Positions 3,772 through 9,333 of a stretch of DNA of 64,000 nt are shown here, in pieces (within the stretch, counting starts at the first letter, position 1; every line of letters begins with the position of its first letter). The stretch covers positions 1-64,000 of the forward strand of contig PLHW01000018.1 in the NCBI GenBank assembly GCA_003139095.1, written 5' to 3'. The position numbers and the translations under genes were made by a program. The notes beneath the pieces are model-generated. The model was not told the DNA's origin, did no database searches, and saw only the letters and a list, made by a program, of their open reading frames with translations. Origin of the DNA: Acidobacteriaceae bacterium (GTDB lineage Bacteria > Acidobacteriota > Terriglobia > Terriglobales > Acidobacteriaceae).

Positions 3772-3857
3772 TCACCATCGGCCATCGGCTGATCAATAAC
3801 AAAGAGCGCTCTTGACTTCAGATCACCCGATCACCCGATGTCAAGATGGCCCGATCC
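3772..3857. repeat. paired inverted 8-9-bp tandem arrays (CATCGG / ACCCGATC)
   Basis: The left array is CCATCGG-CCATCGG-CTGATC (3772-3795). The right array, GATCACCCGATCACCCGATG (3821-3840) continued to 3857, is its approximate reverse complement. Between them TCTTGAC and GTCAAGA (7 bp) can pair around the first right-hand units. It lies between the divergent kinase and chdC genes. Confidence 0.55.
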
Positions 3858-3866
3858 CCAGATTGC

Positions 3867-3872
3867 TACAAT
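3867..3872 (+). promoter_or_regulatory. -10-like TACAAT box of chdC
   Basis: TACAAT ends 17 nt before the chdC ATG. The same hexamer precedes several plus-strand genes here (7505, 11503, 22270, 49097). No convincing -35. Confidence 0.35.
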
Positions 3873-3889
3873 ACCAAGAGGCTAAATCC

Positions 3890-4753
3890 ATGAGTCATCC
3901 CGTAGTCTCCCCCGCCGAGGCCGCACAACTGCCCGCGGTTCCGCTCACTCTCGAAGGTTATGCCGCGCTTCATCAAATGCTGCGCTTCAATTGGAGCGCC
4001 TGGCGCGCCCTTGCCGCCGGCGACCGCCGCGACATCGCCTCCGAAGCCTCTTCTGTCCTCTCTCTAATGGAGTCCCGCGAACATGGCCAGTCCGCGCTTT
4101 TCTCCCTTCTCGGCCACAAGGGCGACCTGATGCTGATCCACTTCCGCGACACCTTCGACGAGCTCAACCAGGCCGAGCTCGACCTCACCCGCACCCGCCT
4201 CTCCGACTTCCTCGAGCCCGAAACCTCTTACCTCTCCGTCATCGAACTCGGCCTCTACGAGTCCAGCCTGAAGACCTACAAATCCCTAGCCGAGCGCGGC
4301 GTCGAGCCGCATTCCGATGAGTGGAAACAGGCCATTGCGGAAACCATCTCCCGCCAGAAAGAAGCCATGAAGCCGCGCCTCTTCCCCACCATGCCTTCCA
4401 ACCGCTATCTCTGCTTCTATCCCATGGACCGTCTGCGCGGCGAGGACAAGAACTGGTACACCCTTCCCATGGCAGAGCGCCAGCGCCAGATGAATGAGCA
4501 CGGTTTGGTCGGACGCCGCTATGCCGGCGAGGTCAAGCAGATCATCACCGGCTCCATCGGCTTCGACGATTGGGAATGGGGCGTCGACCTCTTCGCCGAC
4601 GATCCGTTGGTCTTCAAAAAACTCATCTACGAAATGCGCTTCGACCAGGTCAGCGCCGTCTACGCGCTATTCGGCAGCTTCTACGTCGGACTGCGATGCC
4701 CCGCCAGCCGCCTCCACGAACTGCTTGAAGGCAAGCTCCCGAGCAGAGAGTAG
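3890..4753 (+). CDS. chdC: coproheme decarboxylase (HemQ/ChdC, chlorite dismutase family)
   Basis: A 287-residue protein of the chlorite-dismutase-like family. ChdC converts iron-coproporphyrin III to heme b with peroxide, the last step of the coproporphyrin-dependent heme pathway. The C-terminal half carries the family block CFYPMDRLRGEDKNWYTLP, where the Tyr is the expected catalytic radical Tyr, then a QIITGSIGFDDWEWGVDLF strand and the FGSFYVG terminus. The N-terminal half (about residues 20-150) is the diverged first ferredoxin-like domain. The start at 3890 follows a TACAAT box and begins MSHPVVSP; an in-frame ATG at 3812 lies in repeat sequence and is less likely. It is monocistronic in this window. 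Confidence 0.85.
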   Translation: MSHPVVSPAEAAQLPAVPLTLEGYAALHQMLRFNWSAWRALAAGDRRDIASEASSVLSLMESREHGQSALFSLLGHKGDLMLIHFRDTFDELNQAELDLTRTRLSDFLEPETSYLSVIELGLYESSLKTYKSLAERGVEPHSDEWKQAIAETISRQKEAMKPRLFPTMPSNRYLCFYPMDRLRGEDKNWYTLPMAERQRQMNEHGLVGRRYAGEVKQIITGSIGFDDWEWGVDLFADDPLVFKKLIYEMRFDQVSAVYALFGSFYVGLRCPASRLHELLEGKLPSRE

Positions 4754-6842: not shown

Positions 6843-7415
6843 TCACCGCTTCAACGTCTTCCTCTCGCACGCGTCCACAATCTTCGTCGGATCGATGGCC
6901 TCCCGGTCAATCTGCTCTTCCAGAATTTTCCCGTCTTTCCCAATCAGAAAATTCACCCGCCGCGCCGCCTTGTACTTGTCTACATAAATTCCATACTCCC
7001 GCGTCACCTCGCCTCCCCAATCGCTCAACAGCGGAAACGTCACGCCGATCTGGTCGGCGAATGCTTTATTGGCGAAGGGGCTATCCATGCTTACACCCAG
7101 AACCTGGGTGTCGGCGGCTTCCAGCTTTTTCAGATTCTGCTGGAACGCCTTCATTTGCGCGGTTCAACCCCCGGTAAACGCGAAAACGTAAAACGCCACA
7201 ACCACATTGCTCTTTCCCCGATACTCGCCGAGCGATACATTCTTCAGATCCGAGCCGTCAAAATATTGCAGCTTGAAGTCCGGCGCCGTGTCGCCCACCT
7301 TCAGCTTCATCGGCTCGGCTTCCCCCTTCTTCGCCTGCGCTCCCGCCGCCACAGACAGCATCGCGAGTCCCACCACACACATGGCGGCCCGCTTCAATAA
7401 ACATCCGAGTTTCAT
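6843..7415 (-). CDS. exported peroxiredoxin (AhpC/TSA, BCP-like), probable selenoprotein with in-frame UGA
   Basis: One continuous 190-codon frame if the TGA at 7164-7166 is read through as residue 84. Residues 1-28 are a signal peptide ending VAAGAQA, so it acts outside the cytoplasm. The mature part follows the peroxiredoxin plan: LKVGDTAPDFKL, RGKSNVVVAFYVFAFTGG-U-TAQMKAF, LGVSMDSP, FPLLSD, EVTREYG. The UGA aligns exactly with the peroxidatic Cys of the AFTPGCT motif of BCP-type enzymes. The halves before (7415-7164) and after (from ATG 7154) are in the same frame, so no frameshift is involved. A stem-loop fitting a bacterial SECIS begins 14 nt after the UGA. Only one other Cys follows (VDACERK near the C-terminus) and could resolve. 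A TGC/TGT-to-TGA sequencing error or a dead gene is the alternative. No sel genes are in the window. Confidence 0.8.
7113..7149 (-). promoter_or_regulatory. candidate bacterial SECIS element
   Basis: In mRNA sense, nucleotides 19-25 after the UGA (UUCCAGC) pair perfectly with nucleotides 39-45 (GCUGGAA). A lower GGCG/CGCC stem (15-18 with 48-51) extends it past a 2-nt bulge. The 13-nt apical loop holds G at +27 and +33, within the usual 16-37-nt window from the Sec codon. SelB binding would need an experiment. Confidence 0.65.
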
Positions 7416-7510: not shown

Positions 7511-7533
7511 AATTGCGGGCCCGATCGGATCAG

Positions 7534-9333
7534 ATGAGCCTCCGCACTCTGAACGATGTTCTCTCGACGGTTTATCAAAGTCAGCGCCCCCGCGTAATGT
7601 TGCAACGGGAAGCCACTGGGTGGATTCCCATCTCTTCCGCCGAGCTTTACCGCAACGTCGTCGGCCTCGCGCGCGCCTTCGAGTCCTGGGGAATCGGCAA
7701 GCGCGACCGCGTCGCCATCCTCAGCGAAAATCGCCCCGAGTGGACCATCGCCGATTTCGCGGCCCTCTCGCTCGGCGCCGTCACCGTCCCCATTTACGCC
7801 ACTCAAACTGCCGAGCAGACCGCCTACATCCTCCAGGACTCCGGCGCCCGCGTCATCGCTGTCTCCACCGCGCACCAGTTGGAAAAAGTTCTCGCCGTTC
7901 AGCACCATACGCCGGTCGAGCGCATCCTCGTCATGGATTCCGTCGCATCCCCGGCCGCCGCTCCCATGTCCGAATTCACCTTGCGCGGCCCGCAAGGTGC
8001 CGACGCCGATTTCGACGCCCGCGCCGGCTCCATCACCCCCGACGATCTTGCCACCATCATCTACACCTCCGGCACAACCGGCACTCCCAAAGGTGCCATG
8101 CTGACTCACGGCAATATGGCCTCCAACATCTCCTGCTCACTTGAGGGCTTCAATTTCCGCTGGAAAGAAGAGGTCAGCGTCTCCTTCCTGCCCCTCTCGC
8201 ACGTTACCGCTCGCCACGTCGATTTCGCCCTGCTCTACCGCGGCGTCACGCTCGCCTACTGCTCTGAAATCGCGCAACTCCCGCAGGTCCTCACCCAAAT
8301 CCGCCCATCCATATTTGTTGCCGTCCCGCGCGTCTACGAAAAAATTCGTCAGCAGGTAATCCTCAAGGCATCCGGCTTCCCGAAAGCCGCAATCTATCGC
8401 TGGGCTCTCAAAGTCGGCCGCGCTCACCGCAACGAAATCCTGGAAGAAATTCAGCCCCGCGCGCTCTCCTGGAAAATTGCCAATCGCCTGATCTTCTCCA
8501 AAGTTCGCACCGGCATGGGCGGCCAGGCCGAAGAGTTCATCTCCGGCGGCGCGCCCCTCGGCCGCGAGCTGACCGAATGGTACGCCGACATCGGCATCCG
8601 CATCCTCGAAGGCTACGGCCTCACCGAAACCTCGCCCGTCATCGCCGTCAATACGCCCAAAGCCCACAAACTCGGCTCCGTCGGCAAGCCGCTCTCCAAC
8701 GTTGAAGTGCGCCTCGCCGATGATGGCGAAGTCCTCGTCCGCGGTCCATCCATCTTCCTAGGTTATTGGAATCGTCCCAACGAAACCGATGCCGCCTTCG
8801 ACGATGGCTGGTTCAAAACCGGCGACATCGGGCACATCGACGGCGAAGGTTTCCTCTCCATCACCGATCGCAAAAAAGATCTCATCAAAACTTCCGGCGG
8901 AAAATTCATCGCCCCGCAACCCATCGAAAATTCCCTCAAGCTCAGTCCGCTCGTCGGCACTGCCGTCGTCCTCGGCGACCGCCGCAAGTTCCCCGCCGTC
9001 CTCATCGCGCCTCACTTCCCCGTTCTCGAAGATTGGGCGCACTCCCACAAAATCATCTTCTCCTCGCGCCAGGAACTTGTCTCGAACATCAGGGTCCAGG
9101 CGCTCTATGAGAATCTGGTCGAAGAAATCAACCAGAGCCTCGCACGCTTCGAAAAACTAAAGCGCGTCCTCCTCGTCCCCGACGAATTTTCCTGGACGGA
9201 CGGCACCCTCACCCACACCTTCAAAGTCCGCCGCCGCGGCATCGAAACCCGCTATCAGGAACTAATCGAAGACATGTACGCGAAGGCAGAAGGAACCGAT
9301 AAGAAAGTCGAAGTCGGAGCCAGTCGACAATAA
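7534..9333 (+). CDS. long-chain acyl-CoA synthetase (AMP-dependent, FadD15-like)
   Basis: A 599-residue adenylate-forming enzyme that activates fatty acids to acyl-CoA. Motifs in order: the phosphate-binding loop YTSGTTGTPKG (about residues 178-188), LPLSHVTAR (about 218), YGLTETSP (about 361) and the hinge with the GDIGHIDGEGFLSITDRKKD segment (about 430-449) followed by KTSGGKFIAPQPIE, where the Lys binds adenylate. The tail is shorter than that of medium-chain enzymes and fits the ~600-residue long-chain group. The ATG at 7534 was preferred to the in-frame TTG at 7513. It is not in an operon. It could serve beta-oxidation or phospholipid synthesis. Confidence 0.9.
   Translation: MSLRTLNDVLSTVYQSQRPRVMLQREATGWIPISSAELYRNVVGLARAFESWGIGKRDRVAILSENRPEWTIADFAALSLGAVTVPIYATQTAEQTAYILQDSGARVIAVSTAHQLEKVLAVQHHTPVERILVMDSVASPAAAPMSEFTLRGPQGADADFDARAGSITPDDLATIIYTSGTTGTPKGAMLTHGNMASNISCSLEGFNFRWKEEVSVSFLPLSHVTARHVDFALLYRGVTLAYCSEIAQLPQVLTQIRPSIFVAVPRVYEKIRQQVILKASGFPKAAIYRWALKVGRAHRNEILEEIQPRALSWKIANRLIFSKVRTGMGGQAEEFISGGAPLGRELTEWYADIGIRILEGYGLTETSPVIAVNTPKAHKLGSVGKPLSNVEVRLADDGEVLVRGPSIFLGYWNRPNETDAAFDDGWFKTGDIGHIDGEGFLSITDRKKDLIKTSGGKFIAPQPIENSLKLSPLVGTAVVLGDRRKFPAVLIAPHFPVLEDWAHSHKIIFSSRQELVSNIRVQALYENLVEEINQSLARFEKLKRVLLVPDEFSWTDGTLTHTFKVRRRGIETRYQELIEDMYAKAEGTDKKVEVGASRQ

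Follow-up and report, generated by a model that had tools for sequence, protein, structure and literature searches.

A probable selenocysteine peroxiredoxin of Acidobacteriota with an export-type N-terminus and two conserved RNA hairpins downstream of its UGA codon

A 64,000-nucleotide stretch of an Acidobacteriaceae contig from a soil bacterium (the window) carries a gene whose product is, with a probability of roughly 90%, an AhpE-like peroxiredoxin that is located outside the cytoplasm and has selenocysteine as its peroxidatic residue. Comparison of genomes establishes that the UGA codon lies in a genome with a full selenocysteine apparatus, that the codon and the protein downstream of it are conserved in Acidobacteriota, and that the mRNA contains a conserved structure; the steps of the mechanism, export and activity are inferred. 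Selenocysteine peroxiredoxins (T-x-x-U) are themselves an established family in the portions of the literature that were available (PMC13188914, PMC1088965, PMC1794560), and the new elements are the displaced two-hairpin structure and the exported AhpE-like branch. The features discussed below are as follows.

6843..7415, minus strand: coding sequence of the selenocysteine peroxiredoxin, 190 amino acids including U84; TGA is also its ordinary stop codon (6845-6843)
7164..7166, minus strand: selenocysteine UGA codon (U84) at the peroxidatic position, placed by the reading of the frame and by conservation in relatives
7332..7415, minus strand: probable Sec-type signal peptide, residues 1-28, by rules of thumb; cleavage after AQA is a guess
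7116..7149, minus strand: RNA hairpin A, proposed SECIS spacer, from synonymous constraint, pair counts and fold
7093..7111, minus strand: RNA hairpin B, proposed SelB-binding part of the SECIS, from synonymous constraint, pair counts and fold
6867..6869, minus strand: codon of Cys183, the proposed resolving cysteine, which is the only Cys after the signal region and is invariant in 40 rows
7513..9333, plus strand: divergent long-chain acyl-CoA synthetase-like gene, the usual neighbour in the order; the ORF start was listed mechanically

Acidobacteria had been credited in 2006 with three families and four selenoproteins, and three selenoproteins are credited to the acidobacterium Occallatibacter riparius, without their identities in the portion available (PMC12013277). 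The literature covered excluded most subscription papers, so the negative result that follows does not prove absence: no work was found that describes a selenocysteine peroxiredoxin from Acidobacteria or of AhpE type, an exported AhpE-like selenocysteine branch or a two-hairpin element.

Read on the minus strand, the frame starts at 7415, meets the selenocysteine UGA at 7166-7164 and ends at a true TGA stop at 6845-6843. With the internal TGA read as U, the product has 190 residues (MKLGCLLKRAAMCVVGLAMLSVAAGAQA... AFYVFAFTGGUTAQMKAFQQ ...). A single TGA interrupts one AhpC/TSA frame at the point where peroxiredoxins have the peroxidatic cysteine. The Pfam AhpC-TSA match spans this codon (E 1.5e-34, residues 40-164), and in profile alignments U84 lies under the active Cys of AhpE and of another peroxiredoxin. 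These results bear out an earlier sequence-only reading, which had described two same-frame halves of one AhpC/TSA protein parted by a single TGA, with correct coordinates, and had aligned U with the peroxidatic Cys. That reading had placed the locus at 6843-7415 without naming a strand; the interval stands in plus-strand numbering, and the gene itself is on the minus strand. General reassignment of UGA was rejected, since the gene and many of its homologues also end in TGA. On the sequence evidence assembled here the gene is that of a selenoprotein, although there are no protein-level data and the presence of selenium in the protein is inferred. Gene finders cut UGA genes in two, and automatic annotation therefore readily splits selenoproteins or misses them.

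The UGA codon was conserved among relatives. Some protein match at E<=1e-15 was detected in 221 of 249 genomes of the order; the 72 best matches (one per genome) each contained exactly one in-frame TGA, and the first TGA-free match scored only 90.7 bits. Across 117 loci, comprising 30 from the order survey, 45 from a named collection and 42 further ones (some genomes counted twice, the window's own locus included), TGA occupied the aligned codon in 116, or in 93 of 94 distinct sequences with the window's own counted. The sole exception was a Kosmotogaceae homologue with TGT (L097), a remote Cys homologue that was excluded from the RNA counts. In the 117 sequences used for the residue counts given below, those of T(-3) and G(-1) are true by construction for 24, which were found via that motif. 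In a phylum sample, in which at most eight candidates were scored per genome, 65 of 396 genomes had a match at E<=1e-38, six of the 65 being also in the order sample. One TGA was present in 67 of the 70 phylum matches (one of the 67 also had a TAA), and the three without TGA all scored 141.1 bits or less. Inspection of 24 loci of other families showed TGA at this position in every one; of a further 20 loci, 15 had it there and one had TGC. The remaining four (L188, L189, L192 and L193, including two TGA-free matches) did not fit the motif pattern and are absent from the tree described below, as are three Cys peroxiredoxins of the window's own genome that were intended as an outgroup.

No close homologue with Cys at the U84 codon was found in the order or phylum samples. 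In the order, the gene goes with the selenocysteine trait, and a change to the Cys form was not seen. Because no close Cys version was found, selenocysteine seems to be required for the function of the protein. The median dN/dS was 0.20 before the UGA (132 pairs) and 0.084 after it (codons +26 to +53; 116 pairs); 40 shuffled sequences gave 780 pairs, of which the first 200 were tried, and these share few partners. As judged from these alignments, purifying selection persists downstream of the UGA. The sequence-only reading had claimed that conservation continues unbroken past the TGA, had left to an alignment of homologues whether Cys or TGA occupies the codon, and would have been refuted by degraded sequence beyond it; the codon is TGA in 116 of the 117 loci and the sequence beyond it is constrained. 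Its suggestion of an acidobacterial host agrees with the names on related contigs, 44 of 45 in the named collection being Acidobacteria, Terriglobia, Sulfotelmatobacter or Korobacter.

The genome that contains the window (5.53 Mb in 75 contigs, with a completeness of 98.1%) was searched for selA, selB, selC and selD, as had been proposed with the sequence-only reading, and all were present. SelA matched with 525 bits, SelB with 361 bits and SelD with 370.9 bits over two adjacent matches, the first with one in-frame TGA. The tRNA-Sec scored 69.5 bits (cut-off 47), with the anticodon given by ARAGORN as tca (UCA), and its 3' end is G followed by CCA. A second tRNA-Sec profile match over the cut-off in this genome is a serine tRNA, and the loose profile cut-offs were passed in 14 control genomes by tRNA-Sec in five, SelB in two, SelA in one and SelD in two. 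Among the 249 genomes of the order, selB (E<=1e-60) was detected in 110, comprising 69 of 72 UGA carriers versus 41 of 177 non-carriers (Fisher p 2e-28, uncorrected for relatedness). Of the three exceptional carriers, one has a selB apparently split over two contigs (G168), and two gave only short or unclear selB matches (G118, G126). Of the 249 genomes sampled in the order, 72 have this probably exported selenoprotein, nearly always with selB. The selenocysteine machinery, the conservation of the UGA, the constraint downstream of it and the conserved downstream RNA structure all support the selenoprotein reading. As a separate observation, the in-frame TGA of selD (L017, L018; G000:C2:81181-82173) lies in KAAGUASKLSP and is accompanied by a canonical-type fold whose GGU loop lies near +23.

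The most unusual feature of the gene is a two-hairpin element downstream of the UGA. Hairpin A has a core stem UUCCAGC/GCUGGAA and a 13-nt loop and, with its GGC/GCC base, comprises nt +17 to +50 (U of UGA = 0). Hairpin B is ACACCCAG-GUU-CUGGGUGU, and its apical loop occupies nt +63 to +65. Across 58 distinct genes from the window's clade, synonymous codons were unusually fixed (0.72-0.95) at codons -1 (GGT), +7, +8, +14, +15 and +18 to +25, with the exception of +21 (0.35); single codons elsewhere reached 0.62 at most. The best run of seven codons begins at +18 (0.80); the mean of all such runs was 0.20 and the best outside the region 0.29. The constrained codons are the arms of hairpins A and B.

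Counts of base pairs gave the same picture. In 84 sequences, pair cells of hairpin A (7 bp, the seventh pair weak) were formed in 94.2%, versus 79.9% (maximum 83.8%) under a synonymous null, and those of hairpin B (8 bp) in 98.8%, versus 76.2% (maximum 80.2%). All eight pairs of hairpin B were formed in 90% of sequences, versus a null mean of 5% (maximum 14.3%). This null assumes independent sequences, and comparison along the gene serves as a check on that assumption. When 1320 8-bp hairpins were scored along 285 nt in 83 sequences, hairpin B ranked first; among 4707 6-bp hairpins the top six were variants of B and A, and the next, at -43, reached 0.89. One sequence with a one-codon deletion (L091) was excluded from the pair-cell and ranking counts. 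A double-sided change was seen at only one pair of hairpin B (C-G to T-A, two sequences), so that its support comes mainly from synonymous conservation. The loop of B was G-U-N in 84 of 84 sequences, and folding the corresponding 79 nt of the window gave hairpins A and B and nothing else (-31.1 kcal/mol, z -3.4).

Neither hairpin meets the published bacterial SECIS (bSECIS) consensus, which specifies a loop of 3-9 nt with G in the first two loop positions and an apical loop 16-37 nt from the UGA; the review that gives it states, in the part available, that a subset of elements misfits the model (PMC13188914). Hairpin A satisfies the spacing (25 nt from UGA to loop) but its 13-nt loop is too large. 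Hairpin B satisfies the stem and loop rules (8 bp, a 3-nt loop starting G-U) but fails on spacing, as its loop begins 60 nt past the UGA, with a second conserved hairpin in between. When the 27 nt of hairpin A are subtracted, hairpin B lies at 33 nt. That B is a SECIS is an inference, made outside the published 16-37 nt range, as is the assignment of SelB binding to B and of a spacer role to A.

Outside the window's clade, 29 sequences, 8 of the same order and 21 of other families, show a different arrangement: a single hairpin with its loop at nt 26-28, which meets the consensus in stem, loop and spacing. Its pairs were formed in 89.7%, versus 59.2% (maximum 64.8%) under the null, with double-sided changes present; the window's clade reaches 14% on this model. 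The loops were GGC in 17, GUC in 7, GGA in 3 and GGG in 2, and a U was at the bulge position in 25 of the 29. Counting against this model, minimum-energy folds of several single sequences lacked the hairpin (for example L150, L170, L174, L178, L181, L185, L186). A 60-row tree grouped the two-hairpin sequences in one clade (17 rows, 100/100). With the Cys and AWT-type rows taken as outgroup, this clade is nested among single-hairpin sequences; the intervening forks were weaker (84-87) and the printed root is a midpoint only. Judged by this tree, the two-hairpin form looks derived. Three loci of another acidobacterial family (L163, L164, L167; f27) also have two hairpins and group within the window's clade, perhaps through horizontal transfer if their sequences are a guide.

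The sequence-only reading had likened the protein to BCP-type peroxiredoxins. This assignment was dropped, as the profile and fold comparisons place it nearer to AhpE. In the profile search the best solved relative was the peroxiredoxin-like 2ywn, with AhpE chains in places 2 to 8 except the seventh. The structure model (pLDDT 89.2, pTM 0.80, low confidence for residues 1-30) gave AhpE as the best TM score by target length (0.88, 35% identity) among the best 50 matches listed, at rank 2; rank 1 by E-value was a Chlamydomonas redox protein, a peroxiredoxin. By alignment and predicted fold, and without a subfamily-wide tree, the nearest solved relatives appear to be AhpE peroxiredoxins rather than BCP. 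Mycobacterium tuberculosis AhpE (Rv2238c; PDB 1xvw, 4x0x) has in common AFTG before the active residue and the R-x-x-F arginine. It differs in having Cys for selenocysteine, in keeping the motif Pro and in being called a 1-Cys peroxiredoxin (PDB titles), and its profile match stops before the Cys183 position. A phage protein library matched only a peroxyredoxin and, weakly, a family of unknown function. PrxU is the selenocysteine peroxiredoxin of Eubacterium acidaminophilum. The best NCBIfam model was PrxU (NF040737; E 3e-23), with a score of 82.7 bits against a cut-off of 270, which places the protein outside that equivalog. PrxU likewise has selenocysteine at T-x-x-U, and has the P of PxxxTxxU where the window's protein has V, according to the part of the review and its table that was available (PMC13188914). 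The window's protein is further distinguished from PrxU by its signal-peptide-like N-terminus and displaced insertion element.

Invariant residues in a 40-row alignment included A79, F80, T81, G83, U84, R153 and C183. In the set of 117 sequences used for residue counts, every one had exactly one Cys past position U-42, at U+98 to U+106, which makes Cys183 the likely resolving residue so far as alignment can indicate. The peroxiredoxin profile, fold, Thr and Arg are present, while the Pro of PxxxTxxC (U-7) is V in 66 sequences, I in 46, P in 2 and another residue in 3; this V or I for Pro in 112 of 117 makes peroxidase activity less certain. Among the N-termini of 92 sequences, a hydrophobic stretch was present in 92, an A-x-A-like site in 90, a positive N-region in 89 and a lipobox-like motif in 2. 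By these simple rules, applied without a control set or a dedicated predictor, the protein is probably exported, and the signal peptide that had been proposed earlier is supported to that extent.

Several other explanations were considered. The TGA might be an error of sequencing or assembly, or a nonsense mutation that arose recently and left a pseudogene of an ordinary Cys peroxiredoxin; a lone TGA in an otherwise intact frame, as seen here, is what one error would produce. However, TGA recurs at this codon in 116 of 117 loci, drawn from many genomes, 67 of the 70 phylum matches contain one TGA, its position is shared by 24 loci and by 15 of 20, and dN/dS downstream is 0.084. These results reduce the chance of an error or pseudogene to practically nil, and both were rejected. 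Scarcely more credible is the reading of UGA as cysteine by selenocysteine-like machinery, via a selC*-type tRNA-Cys with a UCA anticodon. Cys would be acceptable at site U84, and such tRNAs occur in other bacteria according to the portion of the source available (PMC7609411), which also gives U73 for cysteine tRNAs. However, the tRNA of this genome fits the tRNA-Sec profile, and the base that precedes its CCA is G rather than U73, on which ground cysteine insertion was rejected; selA and selD are also present, selD itself with an in-frame TGA. With selenocysteine in place, the protein might still be some other thiol-selenol oxidoreductase or a chaperone, the motif Pro having been lost, as the V or I in 112 of 117 sequences would allow. 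We consider this improbable in view of the AhpE-like fold, the retained Thr, the retained Arg that corresponds to the AhpE arginine, and the Pro kept in 2 of 117.

The insertion element is less settled. Selenocysteine might be inserted with hairpin A alone as the SECIS, hairpin B serving another role such as mRNA stability or pausing during export. Hairpin A is at the canonical place, 25 nt from UGA to loop, and its stem is constrained, yet its 13-nt loop exceeds the 3-9 nt published in the accessible part of the review (PMC13188914) and its loop codons +10 to +12 are unconstrained; B is the more constrained, has the G-U-N loop in 84 of 84, and belongs to the clade without the single canonical hairpin. 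We regard A alone as possible, at somewhat worse than even odds. The chances are about even that the SECIS of this clade has been rebuilt, the hairpin recognised by SelB having shifted downstream by about 36 nt and a dedicated spacer hairpin bringing it back within reach, so that SelB would act over 60 nt of linear sequence, with the loop of the genome's own selD at the canonical distance. If true, this would be a two-hairpin bacterial SECIS class that is missed by finders built on the 16-37 nt model. The element makes SelB reach and RNA geometry directly testable by synonymous changes only.

Under the favoured reading, an exported selenocysteine peroxiredoxin, tRNA-Sec and SelB would insert selenocysteine with the aid of the two consecutive hairpins, A folding away about 27 nt and so bringing the G-U-looped B within the usual reach of SelB. 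The protein would then be exported via the Sec route, and U84 is predicted to attack (lipid) hydroperoxides and become a selenenic acid. Cys183 may resolve this as a selenenylsulfide, to be reduced by a putative periplasmic thioredoxin-like partner.

The substrate was considered from the neighbouring gene. The acyl-CoA synthetase gene starts divergently about 100 bp from the peroxiredoxin gene; its best model, FadD11, scored 340.6 bits, far under the cut-off of 950. A divergent synthetase homologue was present in 42 of 44 named loci, the match beginning less than 0.65 kb from the UGA in 37 and at 1.0-1.3 kb in five (L089, L091, L092, L094, L096); of the two loci without one, L080 is cut short and L088 lacks it. 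It was also present in 29 of 30 order-survey loci, partly from the same genomes, the remaining one (L042) being cut short, and near 1 of 24 loci of other families, for which the flanks were only about 1.5 kb. Six other genes of the window, including an anti-sigma antagonist and HemQ, were each conserved in 0 of 44 loci. M. tuberculosis AhpE reacts far faster with fatty acid hydroperoxides than with H2O2, according to the part of the source available (PMC9952270). The synthetase neighbour and this preference of AhpE together suggest lipid hydroperoxides in the envelope as the substrate, a concrete proposal that remains a guess by analogy. HemQ, a peroxide-dependent haem synthase, lies about 2 kb away (window 3812-4753, plus strand; NF008913, 326 bits, cut-off 253).

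Other loci of related type were also seen. Outside the window, the same genome has a second AhpC/TSA-like gene with one in-frame TGA and a W-U-P-N-C motif (L111; G000:C48:65221-65625), which has the look, from its sequence, of a Prx-like thiol:disulfide selenoprotein (U-x-x-C). An apical loop common to the UGA genes of this genome was not seen in single folds compared by eye, and L111 folds unlike selD. A TGA-free AhpC/TSA match (L105 / L001; G000:C63:30270-31151) begins about 370 bp from the tRNA-Sec gene. In other acidobacterial families, a second group of UGA peroxiredoxins (L190, L191, L194, L196) has the motif FYPLAWT(P/S)VU, with the motif Pro kept and a Cys at U+31.
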